The notes beneath the pieces were generated by a model. The model was given only the letters and a program-made list of their open reading frames with translations, was not told the origin of the DNA and made no database searches. From Pseudohaliea rubra DSM 19751 (GTDB lineage: Bacteria; Pseudomonadota; Gammaproteobacteria; Pseudomonadales; Halieaceae), in contig NZ_KN234745.1 of the NCBI RefSeq assembly GCF_000764025.1, positions 1-64,000 on the forward strand: a stretch of 64,000 bases of DNA, given 5' to 3'. A program made the position numbers and the translations under genes. Shown piece by piece: positions 14,170 through 58,219 of this stretch (position 1 is its first letter; the number at the start of each line of letters is the position of its first letter).

Positions 14170-14630
14170 TGCGCCTCTGCCTGACTGTGTTGCTCATGCT
14201 TCTCGCGCTGCCTTCCGCCGCCGTCATCGAGACCTATGAATTCAGCGCTCCGGAGCTGGAGGTCCGCTACCGCAGTCTGAGCCAGGAGTTGCGCTGTCCC
14301 AAGTGCCAGAATCAGAATATTGCAGACTCCAATGCCCCGATCTCCAAGGACCTGCGACGGCTGCTCTACCAGCAGCTTGAGGCGGGCGCCACGGACCAGG
14401 AAATCCTCGAGGACATGGTGCGTCGCTACGGCGAGTTCGTGCGCTACCGCCCCGATTTCGATCGCAATACGGTGCTGCTCTGGCTTGCGCCGTTACTGTT
14501 CCTTGCCCTCGGCGGTGCCCTGGCCGCCGTTGTCCTGCGCAGGGCCCGGGGCGGCCCGACTCAGGCGCTGGACAGTGATGAGCGGGCGCGTCTCGATGCA
14601 CTGCTGGCCGACAAGGACCGCGCTCAATGA
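14169..14630 (+). CDS. ccmH: Cytochrome c maturation protein CcmH (redox subunit)
   Basis: A 153-residue protein with a signal sequence (about residues 1-18), the family motif 'LRCPKCQNQNIADSNAPIS' with redox cysteines Cys43 and Cys46, a three-helix bundle, and a C-terminal membrane anchor ('VLLWLAPLLFLALGGALAAVVL'). This is the short CcmH (CcmL) form; the TPR part that E. coli carries in the same chain is a separate gene here, ccmI. It works with CcmG on apocytochrome thiols and is part of the heme lyase. Confidence 0.94.
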   Translation: MRLCLTVLLMLLALPSAAVIETYEFSAPELEVRYRSLSQELRCPKCQNQNIADSNAPISKDLRRLLYQQLEAGATDQEILEDMVRRYGEFVRYRPDFDRNTVLLWLAPLLFLALGGALAAVVLRRARGGPTQALDSDERARLDALLADKDRAQ

Positions 14631-15814
14631 CTGTTTTTCTACTCGGCTGCGCCGCGCTGCTGGTGCTGGCGGCCCTTTTCATTCTGCGCCCCGGCGCCCG
14701 GGCACGGGCCCGGGCCGAGGACGCGGCCAACCTCGACTGGTTCCGGCTGCGCCGTGCGGAACTCGCTGAGAGCGGCGAGGCAGAGCTGCTCGACGATGCG
14801 CGGTTGCGTGTCCTCGAAGACGGCGTCGAGGACCCGACACCGGGCGCTGCTGTGGTCGAGGAGCGCTTCCGCGCGGCCTGGCTTCTGCCGCCGCTGTTGC
14901 TGGTGGCCGCCGGCTGGCTCTACTGGGAGCTGGGTGCCATGGCGGACGTCACGCTGGCGCAGCGCCTGGACACCCTTGGTGAAGACACACCGGCAGTCGA
15001 AATCGACGCGCTCATGAGCGATATCGGCGCCCGGGTCGGGCAGCGGCCGGAGAATCTGGGCTACCGTGCGCTCCTGGGCCGCTATCACATGGCGCGCGGC
15101 AACTACGCGCTTGCTGCCGAGGCCTACACGGATCTTGCCCTGCGTGCCCCCGGTGATGCACAGGCGCTGGCGCTTGCCGCCCAGGCCCGCTTCCTTGCCG
15201 CGGATCGCCAGCTTTCCGCTGAGGCGCAGCGCCTTGCGGAGCAGGCCCTGGCCGCCGATCCGCGTCAGCGCACAGCCCTGGGCCTGCTCGGTATGGTGTC
15301 CTTCGAGGCGGGTCGCTACCGGGCTGCCATTGAATACTGGGAGCGCCTCGTTGCGCAGGAAGCCCCGGACTCGCCGAGCGCGCAGATGCTCACGGACGTC
15401 ATCGCCAGCGCCCGCGCTCGCCTGGGTGAAGCGGGGGAGGAGGGGGCCGGCGGGGCTGCCGCTACCGGCCCTGGCATCACGGTGACTGTCAAGGCACCCG
15501 CCGAGGGCACGCTTACTGGTCGCGAGACCGTGTTCGTGCTCGCTCGCCCCGAGGCCGCCGCGAGCCGCATGCCGATCGCGGTGCAGCGCTTCACCGCGGC
15601 GGAGCTTCCGCGCACCTTGCGCCTGGACGATCGCAACAGCATGGCCGGGCAGAAGCTGTCGACGGCGGGTGCCGTGCGCGTGTTTGTTCAGGTCTCGCCG
15701 GGTGGAGAGCCGGGGCTGGCTAATGCGGTGCTGGCCGGTAGCGCCGGGCCGGTCACCGCGTCTGCCGACGATGCTGCCGAAGTCGAGGTGCTGCTGGCGC
15801 CCACTGCCGGCTAA
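14627..15814 (+). CDS. ccmI: Cytochrome c maturation protein CcmI
   Basis: A 395-residue protein starting with a helix ('FLLGCAALLVLAALFIL') and a second helix around 85-105, flanking a short cytoplasmic loop. A TPR region follows (about 115-265: repeated 'GRYHMARGNYALAAEAYTDLA' and 'AAQARFLAADRQLS' type helices), and then a C-terminal beta-rich domain ('ITVTVKAPAEG', 'VFVLARPEAA') seen in long CcmI proteins. CcmI binds the C-termini of apocytochromes and delivers them to CcmFH. It ends the ccm operon; two hairpins follow. Confidence 0.9.
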   Translation: MTVFLLGCAALLVLAALFILRPGARARARAEDAANLDWFRLRRAELAESGEAELLDDARLRVLEDGVEDPTPGAAVVEERFRAAWLLPPLLLVAAGWLYWELGAMADVTLAQRLDTLGEDTPAVEIDALMSDIGARVGQRPENLGYRALLGRYHMARGNYALAAEAYTDLALRAPGDAQALALAAQARFLAADRQLSAEAQRLAEQALAADPRQRTALGLLGMVSFEAGRYRAAIEYWERLVAQEAPDSPSAQMLTDVIASARARLGEAGEEGAGGAAATGPGITVTVKAPAEGTLTGRETVFVLARPEAAASRMPIAVQRFTAAELPRTLRLDDRNSMAGQKLSTAGAVRVFVQVSPGGEPGLANAVLAGSAGPVTASADDAAEVEVLLAPTAG

Positions 15815-15815
15815 G

Positions 15816-15905
15816 CCCGCCGCAGCCGGCGGGCATAGTGTTGTCCGGCGAAAGCAGATACACTACATCTTGTGGGCGCGTTGGTGCCCGACACATTCTT
15901 TTTTT
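15816..15905 (+). terminator. Possible ccm operon terminator(s)
   Basis: Two hairpins follow the ccmI stop. CCCGCCG/CGGCGGG (15816-15833, 4-nt loop) has no T-run. GGGCGC-GTTG-GTGCCC (15874-15889, one G-U pair) is followed after nine bases by seven Ts (15899-15905). The second is the better intrinsic terminator candidate, but its T-run is further from the stem than usual. Confidence 0.4.
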
Positions 15906-15912
15906 GCGAGTC

Positions 15913-15941
15913 TTTCAGGGAAAACGCAAGAAAAACATAAT
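15913..15941 (+). promoter_or_regulatory. Candidate smc promoter
   Basis: TTTCAG (15913-15918), a 17-bp spacer, then CATAAT (15936-15941), inside the only clearly AT-rich stretch of the surrounding 20 kb. The predicted start is about 54 nt before the smc ATG at 16002. The -35 match is weak. Confidence 0.3.
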
Positions 15942-16001
15942 CATGCTGAAAGAAGCTCCCGTAAAAACTCAAAGCACTGCCAGCGCGACTGACGGCGTGA
16001 C

Positions 16002-19000
16002 ATGCGGCTGAAGTCCATCAAGCTCTCGGGCTTCAAGTCCTTTGTCGACGCGACCACGGTCACCTTCCCCAGCAACATGGCCGCGGTGGTTGGCCCGAAC
16101 GGCTGTGGCAAGTCCAATATCATCGATGCGGTACGTTGGGTCATGGGCGAGAGCTCGGCCAAGAACCTGCGCGGCGAGTCCATGGCCGATGTGATCTTCA
16201 ACGGGTCCGTGAACCGCCAGCCAGTCGGGCAGGCGTCTATCGAGCTGATCTTCGACAACAGCGACGGCGGCGTCGGCGGAGAGTACGCCAGCTACGCGGA
16301 GATCGCCACGCGTCGGCAGGTTTCCCGGGAGGGGCAGTCGGAGTATTTCCTCAATGGTACCCGCTGCCGCCGCCGCGACATCACCGACATTTTCCTCGGC
16401 ACCGGTCTCGGCCCGCGCAGCTACGCCATCATTGAACAGGGCATGATTTCCCGCCTTATCGAGTCCCGGCCGGAGGAACTGCGCATCTTCATCGAGGAGG
16501 CCGCCGGCATCTCGAAGTACAAGGAGCGGCGCAAGGAAACGGAATCCCGGATGCGCCGCACCCTCGAGAACCTCGAGCGTCTCACGGATATCCGTGACGA
16601 GCTCGAGCGCCAGCTGCAGCACCTGCAGCGGCAGGCGCAGGCGGCGGAGCGGTATAGCGCGCTCAAGGAAGAGGAGCGGACCCTGAAGGCGCAGCTGCTC
16701 GCCCTGGAATGGAAGGAGCTCGACAGCGAAGCCGCTGCCAGTGCGCACAAGGTTGGTGAGCTCGAGGTTTCCCTGGAGGCGGTGCTGGCCGAGCACCAGC
16801 AGGTCGATACGCGGATCGAGCAGCAGCGCGTGGAGCAGACCGAGCGCAGCGATGTCTTCAACGAGGTTCAGGGACGCTACTACACCCTCGGTGCCGAGGT
16901 CGCGCGGATCGAGCAGAGCATTCAGCACCAGAAGGAGCGCTCCCGGCAGCTGCGGGAGGACCTCGCTCAGACCCGGAGTAACCTTGAGGAGGCTCAGCGG
17001 CACCTGCGGGAAGACCGCGAGCGGCTGGAGACGTGGGATGAGGAGCTCGCCGGGCTTGCGCCCGAGAGCGAAGTACTCGACGCCGCGGCGGAGGAAGCCG
17101 CTACGGCGCTTGCTGCCGCTGAAGAGGCCATGCAGGGTTGGCAGCAGCGCTGGGACGAATTCAATCATCGCGCTGCAGAACCCCGGCAGCAGGCCGAAGT
17201 GCAGCAGTCCCGGATACAGCACCTTGAACATGCCCTGAAGCGTCTGCAGGCGCGGATCGAACTGCTGGCCCGCGAGCAGCAGGAACTGGCGCCGGCTGCC
17301 GGCGAGGAAGACCCGGCGCCGCTGCGTGAGGAGCTCGCCGACGCCGAGCTCGCCATCGCCGGTTATGAGGAGCAGGGAGAGGCTGTCGCCGCCGACCTTG
17401 CCGTGAGTCGGGAGGAGGGTACCCGCCTGGCCAGGGAACTCGACGCGGCGCGCTCCCAGCTCGCACAGTTGCGCGGACGCCAGTCCTCCCTGGAGGCCTT
17501 GCAGCAGGCGGCGGCGGAGGATGCCGCAGGTGGGGCCGACGACTGGCTGAGCGGTAACGGCCTGGCGACAGCTCCTCGGCTCCTTTCCCAGCTCGAGGTA
17601 GCCGCGCCCTGGCAGCGGGCCGTCGAGACTGTGCTCGGGGATTACCTGCACGCGGTCTGCGTCGACGACCTGGACGGCCTGGGCCAGCGCCTTGACGGCC
17701 TCGCGGCCGGCCACCTCACGCTGGTTGCCCGGGGCGCAGCAACGCCGGCTTCCGGCGGCACGCTCGCTGCCCAGGTACGCTGCGGCGGACGCGTCGCCGG
17801 ACTCCTCGCGGCGGTGCGCACCGCCGCGGACGAGAGCGAGGCGCTGGCGCTGCGCGGCGAGCTCGCGGGTCACGAGTCCGTGATCACGCCTGAGGGCCTC
17901 TGGCTGGGTCCAAACTGGCTGTCCCTGCGGCGGGGCGAGGCGGAAGCCGGTGGCGTTATCCGGCGCCAGCAGGAGCTGGAGGAGCTGTCACTCGCCGTAG
18001 AGGAAACGGGGGCCCGGGTACGCCAGCTTGAGGAGCTGCAGGCCGGCGAGGCGCAGCGGCTGCGGGATCTGGAGAGTGCCCGGCAGGCGCTTCAGCGTGA
18101 CCAGCAGGCCGCCAGCCGCCGCCAGGCCGACGCCGCGGCCCGGCTCAAGGCGCAGGAGGCTCGCGTCGAGCAGCTGGATGCTCGCCGGGCAGCGCTGGCC
18201 CGTGATGCCGCTGATGCACGCGGCCAGTTCGAGAGCGAACAGGCATCGATCGCCGAGGCCCGCCAGGTACTCGCAGAGGCGATCGAGCGGATGGAAGCCG
18301 ACGCGGGTGAGCGCGAGTCGCTGCTCTCCGAGCGCGACCGTCTGCGCGGCGGGCTCGACGGTTGCCGTCAGGCGGCGCGGCAGGCCCGCGACGGCGCCCA
18401 CCAGGCGGCCATGCGTCTGCGTTCGCTGCAGACGCAGGTCGAGACCATCCGCAGCTCCATCGACCGCAGCCAGGCACAGGTGGCGCAGCTCAGCGAGCGT
18501 CAGGAGACCCTGGCGAGCGGCCTCGAGGATAGCAGTACACCCGTGGCAGAGCTGGAGGCTGAGCTTGAGACGCAGCTTCAGCTGCGCGCAGCGGCCGAGG
18601 TGGAGCTGACCGGGGCCCGCCAGCGCGTCGCCGAAATCGAACATGCCCTGCGCAGCGATGAACAAGCCCGGTCCGGCGTTGAGCAGCGCATTGCTGCGGC
18701 CCGTGCCGAGCTGGAGCAGTGCCGCCTCGGACGGCAGACCCTGGAGGTGCAGCGGGAGAACGTGGGTCGCCAGCTCAAGGAGCTTGCGCAGGACCCTGAG
18801 GCGGTGCTCGAGGGCCTGCCGGAAGACGCGACGCGGGACGGCTGGCAGCAGCAGCTTGAACGCGTTGCCGCGCGTATTGCCCGTCTCGGTCCGATCAACC
18901 TGGCGGCGATCGACGAATACAGCCAGCAGTCGGAGCGCAAACAGTACCTGGACGCGCAGAACGAGGACCTCGAGAGCGCGCTGGCCACTCTCGAGTCTGC

Positions 19001-19499
19001 GATACGCAAGATCGACCGGGAAACCCGCAGCCGCTTCCAGGTTACTTTCGACAAGGTAAACAGTGGCCTCCAGGAGCTGTTCCCGCGCGTTTTCGGTGGC
19101 GGCAACGCGTATCTGGAGATGACCGGTGACGACCTCCTGGATACCGGTATCTCGATCATGGCTCGACCACCGGGCAAGAAGAACAGCACCATTCACCTCC
19201 TCTCCGGCGGGGAGAAGGCGCTTACGGCGATTGCGCTGGTCTTCTCGATTTTTCAGCTCAATCCGGCACCGTTCTGTATGCTCGATGAGGTCGATGCGCC
19301 GCTGGATGATGCCAACGTAGGGCGTTATGCTCGCATGGTGAAGGAGATGTCCGGGAAGGTGCAGTTCATCTTTATCACCCACAACAAGATCACCATGGAA
19401 ATGGCTGACCAGTTGCTCGGTGTCACCATGCACGAGCCCGGGGTGTCTCGCCTCGTGGCCGTGGACGTGGAGGAAGCAGCGGAACTGGCGGCAAGCTGA
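16002..19499 (+). CDS. smc: Chromosome partition protein Smc
   Basis: A 1165-residue condensin ATPase. Walker A 'GPNGCGKSNIIDAV' begins at residue 31. Two long coiled coils (about 165-510 and 655-1000, rich in Gln/Glu/Arg/Leu) flank a hinge (about 515-640). The C-terminal head has the ABC signature 'LLSGGEKALTAIAL' (about 1067) and Walker B 'CMLDEVDAPLDD' (about 1091). Length fits gammaproteobacterial Smc rather than MukB. It compacts and segregates the chromosome with ScpA and ScpB, which are not encoded here. The start lacks a good ribosome site, but the N-terminus MRLKSIKLSGFKSF is canonical. zipA and ligA follow. Confidence 0.97.
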   Translation: MRLKSIKLSGFKSFVDATTVTFPSNMAAVVGPNGCGKSNIIDAVRWVMGESSAKNLRGESMADVIFNGSVNRQPVGQASIELIFDNSDGGVGGEYASYAEIATRRQVSREGQSEYFLNGTRCRRRDITDIFLGTGLGPRSYAIIEQGMISRLIESRPEELRIFIEEAAGISKYKERRKETESRMRRTLENLERLTDIRDELERQLQHLQRQAQAAERYSALKEEERTLKAQLLALEWKELDSEAAASAHKVGELEVSLEAVLAEHQQVDTRIEQQRVEQTERSDVFNEVQGRYYTLGAEVARIEQSIQHQKERSRQLREDLAQTRSNLEEAQRHLREDRERLETWDEELAGLAPESEVLDAAAEEAATALAAAEEAMQGWQQRWDEFNHRAAEPRQQAEVQQSRIQHLEHALKRLQARIELLAREQQELAPAAGEEDPAPLREELADAELAIAGYEEQGEAVAADLAVSREEGTRLARELDAARSQLAQLRGRQSSLEALQQAAAEDAAGGADDWLSGNGLATAPRLLSQLEVAAPWQRAVETVLGDYLHAVCVDDLDGLGQRLDGLAAGHLTLVARGAATPASGGTLAAQVRCGGRVAGLLAAVRTAADESEALALRGELAGHESVITPEGLWLGPNWLSLRRGEAEAGGVIRRQQELEELSLAVEETGARVRQLEELQAGEAQRLRDLESARQALQRDQQAASRRQADAAARLKAQEARVEQLDARRAALARDAADARGQFESEQASIAEARQVLAEAIERMEADAGERESLLSERDRLRGGLDGCRQAARQARDGAHQAAMRLRSLQTQVETIRSSIDRSQAQVAQLSERQETLASGLEDSSTPVAELEAELETQLQLRAAAEVELTGARQRVAEIEHALRSDEQARSGVEQRIAAARAELEQCRLGRQTLEVQRENVGRQLKELAQDPEAVLEGLPEDATRDGWQQQLERVAARIARLGPINLAAIDEYSQQSERKQYLDAQNEDLESALATLESAIRKIDRETRSRFQVTFDKVNSGLQELFPRVFGGGNAYLEMTGDDLLDTGISIMARPPGKKNSTIHLLSGGEKALTAIALVFSIFQLNPAPFCMLDEVDAPLDDANVGRYARMVKEMSGKVQFIFITHNKITMEMADQLLGVTMHEPGVSRLVAVDVEEAAELAAS

Positions 19500-19520
19500 C
19501 GGCGAACTGGGCGCTGACGC

Positions 19521-23126
<3,606 letters not shown>

Positions 23127-23127
<1 letters not shown>

Positions 23128-23186
23128 CAGGGTCGCTCCAGACGGGGCCGCTCCAGACAGGGCCGCTCCAGACAGGGTCGCTCCAG
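23127..23186. repeat. Four tandem copies of a 15-bp unit
   Basis: The unit ACAGGGTCGCTCCAG occurs four times head to tail (starts 23127, 23142, 23157, 23172). The outer copies are identical; the inner two differ by one or two bases (G for A at position 3, C for T at position 7). It begins at the last base of the lipoprotein stop codon and ends 48 bp before the Pho box. A multiple of three, it would encode a repeated pentapeptide in any frame, but no convincing gene covers it. Confidence 0.9.
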
Positions 23187-23234
23187 ACGCCGACGCCGCA
23201 GCCTGTGACGCTCCGGTTGCAAAAAGGGCCCGAT

Positions 23235-53939: not shown

Positions 53940-54481
53940 CAGTCGCTGCTGTCGTCCTCGAGCAGGTTTTCGCTGATTGCTTCGGTATTCGGGAGCGAAC
54001 CCGGCTCTGCGGCGGCGCGGAGGAGCCGTTCTACCTGCCGGCCGCGGCTCCCGGGGCGTGGCACGAGATCCACTACCGCGCGGATTATCCGGCTAGCGCT
54101 CTGCACGAAGTGGCGCACTGGTGTATCGCCGGACGGGCGCGGCGTCTGCTCCCTGACTATGGCTACTGGTACGCCCCGGACGGTCGCGACGCGGATGCCC
54201 AGCGCGCCTTCGAGGCCGTTGAAGCCAAACCCCAGGGTCTCGAGTGGCTCTTCTCCCAGCGCTGCGGTATGCCGTTCCGGCTCAGCCTCGACAACCTCAA
54301 CGGGGAGCTTGTGGCACCGGTCCGGGCGCGCTTCGCTGTCGCGGTGGCCAACGAGGCGCGAGCCTGGCGCGCCCGGGGCCCCGGGGGCCGGGCCGGACGC
54401 TTTCTGGCTGCTCTCGGCGCGCGATTCCCGGAGGGGCGCCCGGTCTCCACGATGCACTTTTCCGTCGCGATGCTTTGCTGA
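53936..54481 (+). CDS. epmC: Elongation factor P hydroxylase EpmC
   Basis: A 181-residue protein of the EpmC/YfcM family, with the metal-binding H-E-x-x-H-W motif: His57, Glu58 and His61 in '[13 protein letters not shown]'. '[23 protein letters not shown]' (in part) holds further family acidic residues, and '[14 protein letters not shown]' follows. EpmC hydroxylates the beta-lysylated lysine of EF-P. It implies that EpmA/EpmB-type EF-P lysylation occurs, though those genes are not here. GTG 53936 overlaps the tusA stop. Confidence 0.93.
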
Positions 54482-54484
54482 ACC

Positions 54485-55603
54485 ATGCGCATTGTCTGTG
54501 ATGAGAACATGCCGGGGCTTCAGGCGCTTGCGGCAGCGGGGGCCCGGCTGCGGTGTCTGCCGGGCCGGGCGATCCGGCGTTTTCACTTGGTCGATGCCGA
54601 CGCGCTGCTGGTGCGTTCCGTCACCCCGGTAAATCAAGCGCTGCTGACCGGTACGCCGGTGCGGTTTGTCGGCACGGCTACCAGCGGCACGGATCACATC
54701 GACCGGGCGGCGCTCCGGGAGCTTGGCATCGCTTTCGCTGATGCCGCCGGTGCCAACGCCAACGCCGTCGCCGAATACGTGCTGGCTGTGCTGGCGGCGC
54801 TCCGGGAACCCCTTGAGCACCTGCTCGCGGGCGGCCGAGTGGGCATCGTCGGCTATGGCAACGTCGGTCGCAGCCTCGGCGCACGCCTCGATGCGCTCGG
54901 CATTGCCTGGGTTGCGACGGATCCCTGGCTTGCGGAGAGCGCCGTGGCGCGCCGGGGCACGCTCGCCGAGATTTTCGCCTGCGATGTGGTGACCCTGCAT
55001 TGTTCGCTTACGGAGCTCTCTCCCTGGCCGAGCCGGCACCTGCTCGACCGCGCTGCCCTGGAGCGCCTCGCCGCCGGTACGCTACTGATCAATGCGAGTC
55101 GTGGCCCGGTGGTCGACAATGACGCTCTCCAGGCCTGGCTGGTCGACGGCCGGGGGAGGGCGGTGCTCGATGTCTGGGAACGGGAGCCTGAGGTGCCGGC
55201 CCCCTTGCTGGCCCGGGTCGCCCTGGGGACACCGCATATCGCCGGCTACTCCCTCGAGGCGCGGCTCGCCGGGACCCGTTGCGTGGTGTCGGCTATGGAC
55301 GAGGCGCTGGGCACGGCCTATGCCGGCTCCCTGGCGCCACCTCCGGCATCAGTGCTTGCATTGCCGGCAACGGGAGACGGCCCGGCGCTGCTGCGCAAAC
55401 TGCTGCTCGGCCGCTATGCCCCCGGGGATGACGATCGGCAGCTGCGTGCGGCCCTGGCCGCTGCCGGGGGAGCGCGCGCGGCGGCCTTCGACCGGCTGCG
55501 CCGCGCTTACCCCCTGCGCAGGGAGCTGGCCGGTAACCCGGTCAGCGGCGGTTCCGCCAGGGTGCGGGAGCTGGCAGCAGCGCTGGGCTGTGAGGTGCTG
55601 TAA
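54485..55603 (+). CDS. pdxB: Erythronate-4-phosphate dehydrogenase PdxB
   Basis: A 372-residue D-2-hydroxyacid dehydrogenase. NAD motif 'VGIVGYGNVGRSLGARL' (about 119-135). The catalytic Arg is in 'LINASRGPVVDNDAL', the Glu in the 'WEREPEVP' region and the His in 'LGTPHIAGYSLEAR'. A C-terminal PdxB dimerisation domain (about 285-372) distinguishes it from SerA. It performs the second step of DXP-dependent pyridoxal phosphate synthesis. Restriction of PdxB to Gammaproteobacteria supports the lineage call. Starts 3 bp after epmC. The 104 bp after it, up to tRNA-Gly, hold nothing I can name. Confidence 0.94.
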   Translation: MRIVCDENMPGLQALAAAGARLRCLPGRAIRRFHLVDADALLVRSVTPVNQALLTGTPVRFVGTATSGTDHIDRAALRELGIAFADAAGANANAVAEYVLAVLAALREPLEHLLAGGRVGIVGYGNVGRSLGARLDALGIAWVATDPWLAESAVARRGTLAEIFACDVVTLHCSLTELSPWPSRHLLDRAALERLAAGTLLINASRGPVVDNDALQAWLVDGRGRAVLDVWEREPEVPAPLLARVALGTPHIAGYSLEARLAGTRCVVSAMDEALGTAYAGSLAPPPASVLALPATGDGPALLRKLLLGRYAPGDDDRQLRAALAAAGGARAAAFDRLRRAYPLRRELAGNPVSGGSARVRELAAALGCEVL

Positions 55604-55707
55604 CTGGCTGACGGGATGTAACGGGCGTGGACCTGAAGCGCATAGCAACGAGCGCCGCGGCCTGTCTCGCGGGCAGCTAGTGAGTATTGGGGGGGTGATA
55701 GGAAGTT

Positions 55708-55783
55708 TGGAGCGGGAAACCGGGTTCGAACCGGCGACCTCAACCTTGGCAAGGTTGCGCTCTACCAACTGAGCTATTCCCGC
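55708..55783 (-). tRNA. tRNA-Gly (anticodon GCC)
   Basis: The minus-strand cloverleaf of 76 nt begins GCGGGAATAGCTCAGTTGG and ends TTCCCGC-TCCA. Acceptor GCGGGAA/TTCCCGC is perfect, the anticodon arm is CAACC-TTGCCAA-GGTTG with anticodon GCC, and the T-arm has TTCGAA. CCA is encoded. It is the last gene of a tRNA-Glu/Gly operon and is preceded by two truncated copies of its own 5' half. Confidence 0.97.
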
Positions 55784-55847
55784 AATCGTCTTTCCGTACC
55801 GACCCTGAGTTGGTCGCCGGTACCGGCGAGGCTGGGCGCCCCCCCTG

Positions 55848-55890
55848 CAACCCTGGCAAGGTTGCGCTCTACCAACTGAGCTATTCCCGC
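55848..55890 (-). pseudogene. Truncated tRNA-Gly 5' half (copy nearest the intact gene)
   Basis: Forty-three nucleotides identical to positions 1-43 of the intact tRNA-Gly except A38 to G. They include the 5' acceptor strand, the D-arm and the whole anticodon arm. The T-arm with TTCGA and the 3' acceptor strand are absent, so it cannot mature to a tRNA. Confidence 0.9.
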
Positions 55891-55954
55891 AATCGTCTTT
55901 CCGTACCGACCCTGAGTTGGTCGCCGGTACCGGCGAGGCTGGGCGCCCCTCCTG

Positions 55955-55997
55955 CAACCCTGGCAAGGTTGCGCTCTACCAACTGAGCTATTCCCGC
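55955..55997 (-). pseudogene. Truncated tRNA-Gly 5' half (copy next to tRNA-Glu)
   Basis: Same 43-nt half as at 55848-55890, with the same A38 to G change, located 8 nt after the tRNA-Glu CCA on the minus strand. The sequence before it (ATTTTTCC) differs from the 31-nt spacer of the other copies, so it is the first unit of the array. Confidence 0.9.
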
Positions 55998-56005
55998 AGG
56001 AAAAA

Positions 56006-56081
56006 TGGCGTCCCCTAGGGGGTTCGAACCCCTGTTCCCGCCGTGAAAGGGCGGTGTCCTAGGCCACTAGACGAAGGGGAC
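56006..56081 (-). tRNA. tRNA-Glu (anticodon TTC)
   Basis: The minus-strand 76-nt cloverleaf begins GTCCCCTTCGTCTAG and ends GGGGAC-GCCA. Its anticodon arm is CCGCC-CTTTCAC-GGCGG with anticodon TTC. The T-arm has GGTTCGAACCC, and CCA is encoded. It is the promoter-proximal gene of the tRNA operon. Confidence 0.97.
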
Positions 56082-56108
56082 GCTGTGACCTCTCTTCGAG
56101 AGCGGCGC

Positions 56109-56137
56109 ATTGTATGAAGGGTGTTCCTGAGCGTCAA
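56109..56137 (-). promoter_or_regulatory. Promoter of the tRNA-Glu/Gly operon
   Basis: On the minus strand TTGACG (56137-56132), a 17-bp spacer and TACAAT (56114-56109). The predicted start is about 20 nt before mature tRNA-Glu. The GC-rich stretch after the -10 (GCGCCGC) resembles a stringent-response discriminator. The -35 contains the stop codon of the upstream PA2817-like gene (56136-56134). Confidence 0.75.
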
Positions 56138-56451
56138 GCACTATCTGTTTGGCGTTGCTCAAATTCGGCTATTTCGTCGTCTGCCATGTAATGGAGGCAT
56201 TCTCCGCCGAAAAACCATAGCAATTCGCGCGGGAAGGTGGGGGCGAAATCCGGGTAGGTGGTAAACAGCCGGGAAACCAGTTCGCGCCCCTGGTCGTACA
56301 CATCGGGGCCTCCGGCTGAAATCTCGCCGAAGGCGAGGGCGAGTTCCCGCAGCCCATCGGCAGGACTGAGCTCGCGGGTGCGGTTCAGGAATTCCCGGGC
56401 AAAGGTTTCCAGCAGCCGGCGGCAGTGTTCCGCGTATTCCAGATCGTCCAT
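56134..56451 (-). CDS. PA2817-like conserved hypothetical protein
   Basis: A 105-residue acidic, largely helical protein. The conserved-looking part is 'LVSRLFTTYPDFAPTFPRELLWFFGGECLHYMADDEI' (in pieces, about 58-95), which resembles from memory the PA2817 family of Pseudomonas. There it also neighbours tRNA-Gly/tRNA-Glu genes and an ABC exporter, as here. No function is known. GGAG lies 5 bp before the ATG. The stop codon is embedded in the -35 element of the tRNA promoter. Confidence 0.75.
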   Translation of the reverse strand: MDDLEYAEHCRRLLETFAREFLNRTRELSPADGLRELALAFGEISAGGPDVYDQGRELVSRLFTTYPDFAPTFPRELLWFFGGECLHYMADDEIAEFEQRQTDSA

Positions 56452-56462
56452 GGTGACTCCGG

Positions 56463-56492
56463 TTCTAGGCCCCCCGCCTTTGCGGGTAGAAT
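56463..56492 (+). promoter_or_regulatory. Possible promoter of the ABC exporter operon
   Basis: TTCTAG (56463-56468), an 18-bp spacer and TAGAAT (56487-56492). A small CCCGC-CTTT-GCGGG hairpin sits in the spacer. It is 40 bp upstream of the ATPase start codon. The -10 is good and the -35 weak. Confidence 0.35.
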
Positions 56493-56531
56493 GGGGGCGT
56501 GGCTCAATGATTCAACTGTTAAGGGTAGTGC

Positions 56532-57449
56532 ATGGTTCCGGCTCTGAAAATCGACGCGCTCAGCAAGACGTACCCCGGCGGCTTCCAGGCCCTCAAGGGT
56601 ATCAGCCTGCAGGTGCAGCAGGGCGACTTCTTTGCGCTCCTTGGCCCCAACGGCGCCGGCAAGTCGACCACTATCGGCATCATCTGCTCGCTGGTGGCAA
56701 AGACCGGCGGCAGTATCCAGGTCTTCGGTGTCGATATCGATGTCGACTTCCCGGGTGCCAAAAAACACATCGGCATCGTGCCGCAGGAATTCAATTTCAA
56801 CATGTTCGAGAAGGTCGGCGACATCGTCGTCAACCAGGGCGGCTACTATGGGCTGCCGCTGCCGCTTGCGCGGCAGCGGGCGGAAAAGTACCTGCGGGCC
56901 CTGGGCCTGTGGGAAAAGCGCGACAACGCCTCGCGTATGCTCTCCGGCGGCATGAAGCGTCGGCTCATGATCGCCCGGGCCCTGGTGCACGAGCCGCGGC
57001 TGCTGATCCTCGACGAGCCCACCGCCGGTGTCGACATCGAGATGCGTCGCTCCATGTGGGACTTCCTGCAGGAGATCAACCGGGCTGGCACCACGATCAT
57101 ACTCACCACCCACTACCTCGAGGAAGCCGAGGCCCTGTGTCGCAATATCGCGATTATCAACCACGGCGAAATCGTCGAGTACGGCTCGATCCGTGATCTG
57201 CTCCGCCGTCTTCATCGCGAGGTCTTTATCTTCGATAGTGCGGGCAAGCTGCCGGAGCCGCTCACCTTGCGGGGTTTTGAGGTCCGCCGCGTCGACGACC
57301 ACAGCTTCGAGGTCGAAGTCGAGAAGGGGCAGCATGTTAACGAGGTCTTCGAGGGACTGAGCGCCGCCGGCGTCCGCGTTACCAGCATGCGCAATCGGGC
57401 GAACCGACTGGAGGAGATGTTTGTGAAGCTGGTGGAGAGCGCGGCATGA
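56532..57449 (+). CDS. ABC-2 type exporter ATP-binding protein, YadG-like
   Basis: A 305-residue ATPase with Walker A 'GPNGAGKSTTIG' (residues 38-49), 'QEFNFNMFEKVGDIVVNQGGYYG' (in part; typical of YadG), signature 'MLSGGMKRRLMIARALVHEP' and Walker B 'LLILDEPTAGVDIEMR'. A C-terminal extension of about 90 residues ends 'NRLEEMFVKLVES'. It pairs with the downstream permease by a 4-bp overlap. YadGH-type exporters have no firmly known substrate. Pseudomonas has a similar pair (PA2812/PA2811, from memory) in the same neighbourhood. Confidence 0.9.
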   Translation: MVPALKIDALSKTYPGGFQALKGISLQVQQGDFFALLGPNGAGKSTTIGIICSLVAKTGGSIQVFGVDIDVDFPGAKKHIGIVPQEFNFNMFEKVGDIVVNQGGYYGLPLPLARQRAEKYLRALGLWEKRDNASRMLSGGMKRRLMIARALVHEPRLLILDEPTAGVDIEMRRSMWDFLQEINRAGTTIILTTHYLEEAEALCRNIAIINHGEIVEYGSIRDLLRRLHREVFIFDSAGKLPEPLTLRGFEVRRVDDHSFEVEVEKGQHVNEVFEGLSAAGVRVTSMRNRANRLEEMFVKLVESAA

Positions 57450-58219
57450 GCCTGCGGGAACAGTACATCGCCCTGATGACCCTTCTGCGCAAGGAGATCC
57501 GTCGTTTTTTGCGGATCTGGCCGCAGACGCTGTTACCCTCGGCGATCACCATGTCGCTGTATTTCGTGATCTTCGGTTCGCTCATCGGCTCGCGCATCGG
57601 CGAGATGGGCGGCTTTCGCTACATGGAGTTTGTGGTGCCCGGGTTGATCATGATGGCCATCGTCACCAACAGCTACTCGAACGTTGTGTCGTCCTTTTTC
57701 GGCTCCAAGTTCAACCACAGTGTTGAGGAACTCCTCGTGTCGCCGACGCCGAACTACGTCATACTCCTCGGCTTTTTGCTGGGCGGCATTGCCCGGGGTC
57801 TTCTGGTCGCTATTATCGTCACCGCCGTGTCCCTGTTCTTCACCCGTCTGCCTATTTACAACATCGGCATCGTTATGCTGGTGGTGCTGTTCACCTCAAC
57901 GCTGTTCGCCCTGGCCGGTTTCATCAACGGGGTTTACGCGAACAACTTCGACGACATCAGTATCATCCCGACCTTTGTACTGACCCCGCTTACCTACCTC
58001 GGCGGCGTGTTCTATTCGCTCGATCTTCTGCCTGAGTTCTGGGCCAACGTCTCGAAGCTCAATCCGTTGGTCTACGTCGTCAACGCGTTCCGCTACGGCG
58101 TGCTGGGGGTATCCGATGTCAATGTCACTTTTGCCTTTGCCATGATCGCCGTCTTCACGGTGCTTCTGTTTTTCTACAGCATGCACCTCCTGTCCAGCGG
58201 CAAGCGACTGAGGCAGTAG
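57446..58219 (+). CDS. ABC-2 type exporter permease, YadH-like
   Basis: A 257-residue, six-helix permease of the ABC-2 fold: 'RIWPQTLLPSAITMSLYFVIFGSLIG' (in part) at the first helix, 'FVVPGLIMMAIVTNSYSNVVSSFFG' (in part), and the diagnostic segment 'TPLTYLGGVFYSLDLLPEFW' followed by 'NPLVYVVNAFRYG' near residues 180-215. It dimerises and is powered by the preceding ATPase. The substrate cannot be read from sequence. Confidence 0.9.
   Translation: MSLREQYIALMTLLRKEIRRFLRIWPQTLLPSAITMSLYFVIFGSLIGSRIGEMGGFRYMEFVVPGLIMMAIVTNSYSNVVSSFFGSKFNHSVEELLVSPTPNYVILLGFLLGGIARGLLVAIIVTAVSLFFTRLPIYNIGIVMLVVLFTSTLFALAGFINGVYANNFDDISIIPTFVLTPLTYLGGVFYSLDLLPEFWANVSKLNPLVYVVNAFRYGVLGVSDVNVTFAFAMIAVFTVLLFFYSMHLLSSGKRLRQ

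Follow-up and report, generated by a model that had tools for sequence, protein, structure and literature searches.

Two copies of a 107-nt unit lie between the tRNA-Glu and tRNA-Gly genes of Pseudohaliea rubra, each of them carrying one half of a tRNA-Gly sequence, and this arrangement raises the question whether such broken tRNA copies are only a by-product of duplication or make an RNA of their own. A preliminary description of this 64,000-nt stretch of DNA, the whole of which we call the window, regarded the units as former full tRNA-Gly genes whose 3' halves had been replaced and then homogenised. This interpretation is partly supported by the analysis presented here, and comparison among genomes suggests that the broken copies probably do make RNA of their own.

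All elements of the locus are located on the minus strand, in the order promoter, tRNA-Glu, unit 1, unit 2 and tRNA-Gly; the two tRNA genes and the units are co-oriented and form one predicted transcript (Table 1). The sole promoter-like site within 55600-56300 (0.2 expected) lies upstream of tRNA-Glu, and no terminator-like site was found in the same interval, so that a common transcript with tRNA-Glu, assumed from the start, seems well founded.

Table 1. Features of the Glu-Gly locus of Pseudohaliea rubra (positions are those of the window).
Feature	Position	Strand	Basis
Sigma-70-like promoter of the Glu-Gly transcript	56109..56137	-	TTGACG, 17 nt, TACAAT; 10/12 matches
Intact tRNA-Glu(ttc), upstream member of the transcript	56006..56081	-	ARAGORN; Rfam tRNA 58 bits
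Unit 1, 107 nt	55891..55997	-	Sequence and Tandem Repeats Finder
Unit 1, tRNA-Gly 5' half, 43 nt	55955..55997	-	42 of 43 nt shared with the intact gene
Unit 1, variable-loop insert, predicted mini-pseudoknot	55937..55952	-	Covariation, 36 sequences; core model 61 bits
Unit 1, folded-back T-arm hairpin TCGCCGG-TA-CCGGCGA	55921..55936	-	Perfect inverted repeat; pairs 66-74 and 68-73 covary
Unit 2, 107 nt, one base unlike unit 1	55784..55890	-	Sequence and Tandem Repeats Finder
Unit 2, tRNA-Gly 5' half, 43 nt	55848..55890	-	Comparison with the intact gene
Unit 2, variable-loop insert, predicted mini-pseudoknot	55830..55845	-	Core model 63.5 bits; covariation
Unit 2, folded-back T-arm hairpin	55814..55829	-	Inverted repeat; covarying pairs
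Intact tRNA-Gly(gcc), last gene of the transcript	55708..55783	-	ARAGORN; Rfam tRNA 71 bits

The two 107-nt units are confirmed, and their 106/107 identity leaves unit position 48 (window 55950) as the sole difference. Tandem Repeats Finder reports a period of 107, 2.4 copies, 98% matches and a score of 502 at 55741-55998; no other tandem array in the window comes close to this strength. A separate 15-bp tandem repeat of 4.2 copies, GACAGGGCCGCTCCA, is found at 23126-23214.

Each unit is composed of 43 + 64 nt. Both open with GCGGGAATAGCTCAGTTGGTAGAGCGCAACCTTGCCAGGGTTG, and alignment with the intact gene shows this to be tRNA-Gly 1-43 with A38G as the single change; it comprises the acceptor 5' strand, the D arm and the anticodon arm, and it supports the proposed tRNA-Gly ancestry. 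The half had been placed at the end of the unit; in the transcribed direction, however, it is the 5' start. Nor is the 3' half merely replaced, as the 3' part of the unit consists of the tRNA-Gly variable loop, which holds a specific structured insert, and of a folded-back T arm after it. Between the anticodon and T stems the intact tRNA-Gly, which has no variable-loop insert, reads AGGTC, whereas the unit reads AGG-NNGGRCGNNNAGYC-TC. The 3' acceptor strand is missing (there is no TTTCCCGC in the unit), and because of this loss the unit cannot be charged. The window units are thus not functional tRNA-Gly genes, having no full cloverleaf with an acceptor stem. Their Rfam tRNA scores (20-21 bits) stay under the gathering score of 29, ARAGORN called no tRNA within them, and an Rfam scan of 54000-58000 down to E = 1 returned tRNA only, with no match to RtT RNA (which we take to be RF00391). 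The observation that 107 equals a 76-nt tRNA plus a 31-nt spacer, read before as a trace of full genes, is a coincidence, as the unit measures 95 to 119 nt among relatives.

The half-tRNA repeat is a member of a real and previously undescribed family of tRNA-Gly-derived repeats, long kept in one marine bacterial group; we found no report on it in the literature on Halieaceae tRNA-Gly. A search with the two window units recovered, from many Halieaceae genomes, the half together with the ~37 nt that follow it, and a covariance model of the unit has matches in 41/140 Halieaceae genomes (34/78 good ones, 15/28 genera), at Glu-Gly and Gly-Cys loci. The genome of the window itself holds a second, diverged copy at pgsA-Gly-Cys (G000:C33, L031). 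A very recent and purely local duplication is therefore the wrong picture, as the unit is conserved across many genera. When about 85,000 species were scanned with a pattern, all 34 stretches obtained came from Halieaceae (Haliea, Parahaliea, Pseudohalioglobus, Seongchinamella, Chromatocurvus and Halioglobus among the named genera) or from MAGs with no finer label than Gammaproteobacteria; the units of these MAGs can be aligned with those of the named Halieaceae. Order-wide (294-392 genomes), true core matches, meaning 48 bits or more where an ordinary tRNA-Gly reaches 41, are confined to Halieaceae, to six genomes from a single genus of family f6 and to one f24 genome; 370 genomes spread over the class gave no core matches beyond these three families, and viral contigs gave no core-pattern match. 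In the f6 units the anticodon loop is mostly one base longer, and the arrays they form repeat every 106 nt; one such array is located on a single contig of 3.7 Mb. Class-wide weak matches of R2, at about 38-41 bits, turned out to be ordinary tRNA-Gly genes, and weak matches of R1 in f9, f41 and a few Halieaceae (L125, L128, L130, L131) had no tRNA-like context and were put down to chance.

The PgsA tree requires at least 6 gains or losses of the unit, and no core was found in the assembly of G001, a genome of the same genus; because of this, and of the patchy presence in the family, the unit is not essential. It needs to be added that a G001 contig ends exactly at base 43 of the tRNA-Gly half at the pgsA locus (G001:C217:1-43), and that no intact tRNA-Gly was found in that assembly; this contig end is probably a collapsed array. 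An unusually large tRNA-Gly array, with a dozen or so tRNA-Gly matches, was also seen in family f8 (G043:C84, about 14536-20954).

The insert has the features of a structured RNA. Three of its pairs show double-sided changes among 36 distinct sequences: 48-56 (CG 18, GC 16, GU 1), 49-55 (GC 27, CG 6, UG 3) and 52-60 (GC 20, AU 14, CG 1, GU 1). Pairing is kept in 97-100% of sequences per pair and in 98.1% of all cells. Doubly changed cells number 41, in comparison to 16.1 +/- 3.1 in shuffles (0/500) and 0-9 with slid partners; as shuffles do not preserve relatedness, we relied also on the slid controls and on the tree. The latter is a tree of PgsA and serves the Gly-Cys locus, the gene upstream of the Glu locus having short or missing ORFs. 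Pair 48-56 switches its state on this tree at least 5 times, with most forks weakly supported; in the sister genomes L058 and L077 (100/100 support) both sides of this pair differ. Even within one Haliea genome (L069), two of the insert pairs are changed on both sides between neighbouring units. In the window, unit 1 carries A48-C56 and thus has one insert pair open; its match to the core model reaches 61 bits versus 41 for an ordinary tRNA-Gly.

The helix 48-49/55-56 (2 bp) crosses the helix 51-53/59-61 (3 bp), and therefore, if both form together, the insert makes a very small pseudoknot; two hairpins which alternate in the insert are another possibility. The RNAalifold consensus recovered only the second insert helix, and folding energies of single units, in a test that excludes pseudoknots, are not unusual (z -1.2 to -1.6). 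A pairing of 1-5 with 72-76, that is, of the 5' acceptor strand with the fold-back, was suggested by RNAalifold and ruled out, since the covariation of pairs 66-74 and 68-73 favours a local T hairpin. Taken together, the covarying pairs imply a conserved small folded RNA motif, apparently pseudoknot-like.

Conservation is distributed unevenly over the unit. Between units of different genomes, the insert and T region is 85% identical and the spacer 37% (mean pairwise); within the half, identity between genomes is 98% at 1-34, 69% at 35-38 in the anticodon loop and 98% at 39-43. Of 13 distinct changes in the halves, 7 fall at loop positions 35-38 (p = 6e-5), with the stem and D arm steady. A38G is not general to the family: it lies in this variable part, where 17/34 units are changed. 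On one hand, such loop changes would fit an RNA which keeps its hairpin and no longer decodes. On the other hand, an edge effect of conversion tracts could contribute to them. Through gene conversion, the intact gene can hold the halves close to its own sequence, and the near-identity of the two window units is explained by concerted evolution within a genome. Such evolution cannot explain the conservation of the insert between genera, because the intact tRNA-Gly has no insert and cannot template one.

Two-unit upstream arrays occur in L001, L055, L066, L069, L070, L071, L080 and L083 and in f6 (L117, L200). In most of them, units and spacers hardly vary inside an array but do vary from genome to genome, a pattern consistent with repeated unequal crossing-over and with conversion across the halves as the way in which arrays may grow and homogenise; the homogenisation proposed earlier is supported. 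Copy numbers in drafts are lower bounds, because many drafts break at the halves.

The family also exists in a mirror form. The upstream form, as in the window, has an intact 5' half, the core and a folded-back T arm, with no 3' acceptor strand. The downstream form, whose layout was read by eye, in part from tandem-repeat runs, follows the intact tRNA-Gly and consists of a degraded 5' part, the same core, an intact T arm, the 3' acceptor strand and CCA. Several Halieaceae have it, as does a single genome from a third family. The downstream array of G326 (L120) has 3.9 copies with a period of 106 and ends in the tRNA-Gly 3' half; that at L136 has a period of 104 nt. Common to both forms are the anticodon arm and the variable-loop insert, the latter of 14 nt.

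Other sequences were observed around tRNA-Gly. Nearly full-length forms with the variable-loop insert, an enlarged T arm and the 3' acceptor strand (L035 from about 1212 on the plus strand, L038 from about 743 on the minus strand) are possibly near the ancestral gene. A second conserved fragment 3' of tRNA-Gly (L010, L013, L018, L037, L038, L049, L057; L117 and L199-L202 in f6; two copies in L199) corresponds to the 3' half of tRNA-Gly; its T-loop hairpin, GTGG-NNCG-CCAC or CTGG-NNCG-CCAG, is followed by CCCGG and has compensated stem changes and a UNCG-like loop. In Parahaliea mediterranea and a related MAG, several copies of a REP-like palindrome, TCGAATTTATTCGA / TCGAATGAATTCGA, lie 3' of tRNA-Gly (L008, L070).

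The explanation that we prefer, at a probability slightly above one half (about 0.55), is that the array is a local copy of a lineage-specific, tRNA-linked repeat family encoding a structured, non-decoding tRNA-Gly-like RNA. A former tRNA-Gly would have gained in its variable loop the 14-nt insert forming a mini-pseudoknot, its T arm would have closed on itself, and its 3' acceptor strand would have been lost. As an internal spacer of the Glu-Gly pre-tRNA transcript, the unit would be freed by processing of the flanking tRNAs, that is, by RNase P before tRNA-Gly, 3' trimming of tRNA-Glu and probably RNase E in the spacer. The freed RNA, if stable, could act in trans as a tRNA mimic or a sponge-type RNA via its anticodon hairpin and pseudoknot. 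The 43-nt half would meanwhile serve as a recombination arm, so that unequal crossing-over and gene conversion make the units multiply, shrink and become alike. A function of the units seems likely.

The main rival of such an RNA product is neutral or selfish concerted evolution, where a defective tRNA-Gly duplicate persists as its 43-nt half recombines with the intact gene and no useful RNA results. Near-identical units with common spacers within a genome, contigs that often break at the halves, patchy presence, and halves that barely differ from the intact gene, the outcome expected of gene conversion, all speak for it. However, the insert is absent from the intact gene and yet conserved, with double-sided compensatory changes that include G-U pairs, and in the mirror forms this insert is found joined to the opposite half of the tRNA, so we hold neutral persistence to be rather unlikely. 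A role in cis, by which the unit controls pre-tRNA maturation or the Glu:Gly ratio, for example through pairing of CCGGCGACC with tRNA-Gly 45-53 (GGUCGCCGG), is distinctly improbable. It is true that CCGGCGACC is a perfect 9-nt complement of tRNA-Gly, that this stretch varies in step with the T stem of its own genome (GCCGG or GCGAG types) and that the unit always adjoins tRNA-Gly, but a local hairpin accounts for the same covariation, and the insert is kept both in the downstream forms, where the fold-back stretch is absent, and in several f6 genomes (L199-L204), where other hairpins replace it. Because several f6 units lose CCGGCGACC, antisense control of tRNA-Gly was demoted to this rival.

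The 3' halves of tRNA-Gly are common attachment sites, and downstream copies of 3' halves do occur, so that attachment-site duplications left by phages or islands integrating at tRNA-Gly might come to mind. Such a remnant is nevertheless very improbable, since it is the 5' half that is copied in the window, many genera retain one and the same insert, and the neighbours are a PdxB-like dehydrogenase, an ABC transporter and a short unassigned gene, with neither an integrase nearby nor a matching mobile element found. An origin from phages or plasmids was rejected, as these gave only ordinary tRNA-Gly matches and viral contigs did not match the core. Finally, an assembly artefact is barely credible. 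The genome is a draft of 86 contigs and the copy number is given as assembled, but the array lies inside a 253,690-bp contig, the same genome has its second, diverged copy at the Gly-Cys locus, and arrays of the same design with periods of 104-106 nt exist in other genomes, two of them (G187 and G326) on single multi-megabase contigs. Comparison of assemblies thus indicates that the array is not artefactual in kind.

Returning to a structured, non-decoding RNA derived from tRNA-Gly, its implication, put forward here tentatively, is that a tRNA-Gly paralogue may have left translation by gaining a variable-loop pseudoknot and losing half of its acceptor stem. It would represent a new class of structured RNA, a regulator or decoy in tRNA transcripts, amplified with tRNA sequence as recombination arms and existing in 5'-half and mirror 3'-half forms. 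If functional, this would be a tRNA evolving in place to a non-coding RNA. A practical warning concerns annotation: in Haliea sp. bin.47, ARAGORN calls one pseudo-unit tRNA-Val(gac) (118-205 in L002 and L069), and genome annotations may hold false tRNA-Val genes that stem from non-decoding tRNA-Gly-derived units.

Several known systems invite comparison. In Photobacterium phosphoreum, a highly repetitive tRNA-Pro/tRNA-His cluster with tRNA pseudogenes has reportedly been described, which is likewise a repetitive tRNA operon but of other tRNAs; we know of no conserved insert in it. The pgsA-Gly-Cys(-Leu) locus of the unit is, by synteny, presumably the counterpart of E. coli glyW-cysT-leuZ. As described in PMC8166272, 3'-ETS-leuZ is a tRNA-transcript trailer of E. 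coli that sponges RyhB and RybB (Lalaouna 2015), and according to that account there was, at that date, no report of a stable internal spacer RNA. Both RNAs would come from a non-tRNA part of a tRNA transcript, but 3'-ETS-leuZ is a 3' trailer with known targets, whereas the window units are an internal spacer. RrA, RrB and RrF of E. coli rRNA operons are sequences of the tRNA-linked repeat (TLR) family which are processed to small RNAs and bind Hfq and CsrA in vitro (PMC8144298); they differ from our units in belonging to rRNA operons and repeating the 5S 3' end, with no tRNA half.

The closest relatives are the E. coli TLRs themselves, including tyrT/rtT (Egan and Landy 1978; Rudd 1999; as summarised in PMC8144298). 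Known since 1978, they are defined by 18-19 bp at their 3' end that match exactly the 3' end of the gene directly preceding them; according to the same source, a starvation phenotype has since been attributed to a reading frame close by, and those in tRNA operons have no known function (PMC8144298). The rtT-like flavour noticed earlier in our array is real, as both are tandem repeats inside tRNA transcripts with an exact piece of an adjacent tRNA. Like TLRs, the window units are positioned in a tRNA operon, between tRNA-Glu and tRNA-Gly. However, they repeat 43 nt of the 5' end of the downstream gene, and not 18-19 bp of the 3' end of the upstream one, and they carry the variable-loop insert, so by the published definition they are not members. 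Only the mirror form, found in G326 (e.g. L120) and some Halieaceae, ends in this way and has the TLR layout. To our knowledge, E. coli TLRs do not offer a specific covarying structure, presence and absence in close relatives, or two mirror forms. Because the family described here has all three, it makes the question whether tRNA-linked repeats are junk or RNA genes directly testable. The family is a TLR variant, TLR-like in layout and amplification, with a mirrored layout and a conserved pseudoknot-like insert of its own.
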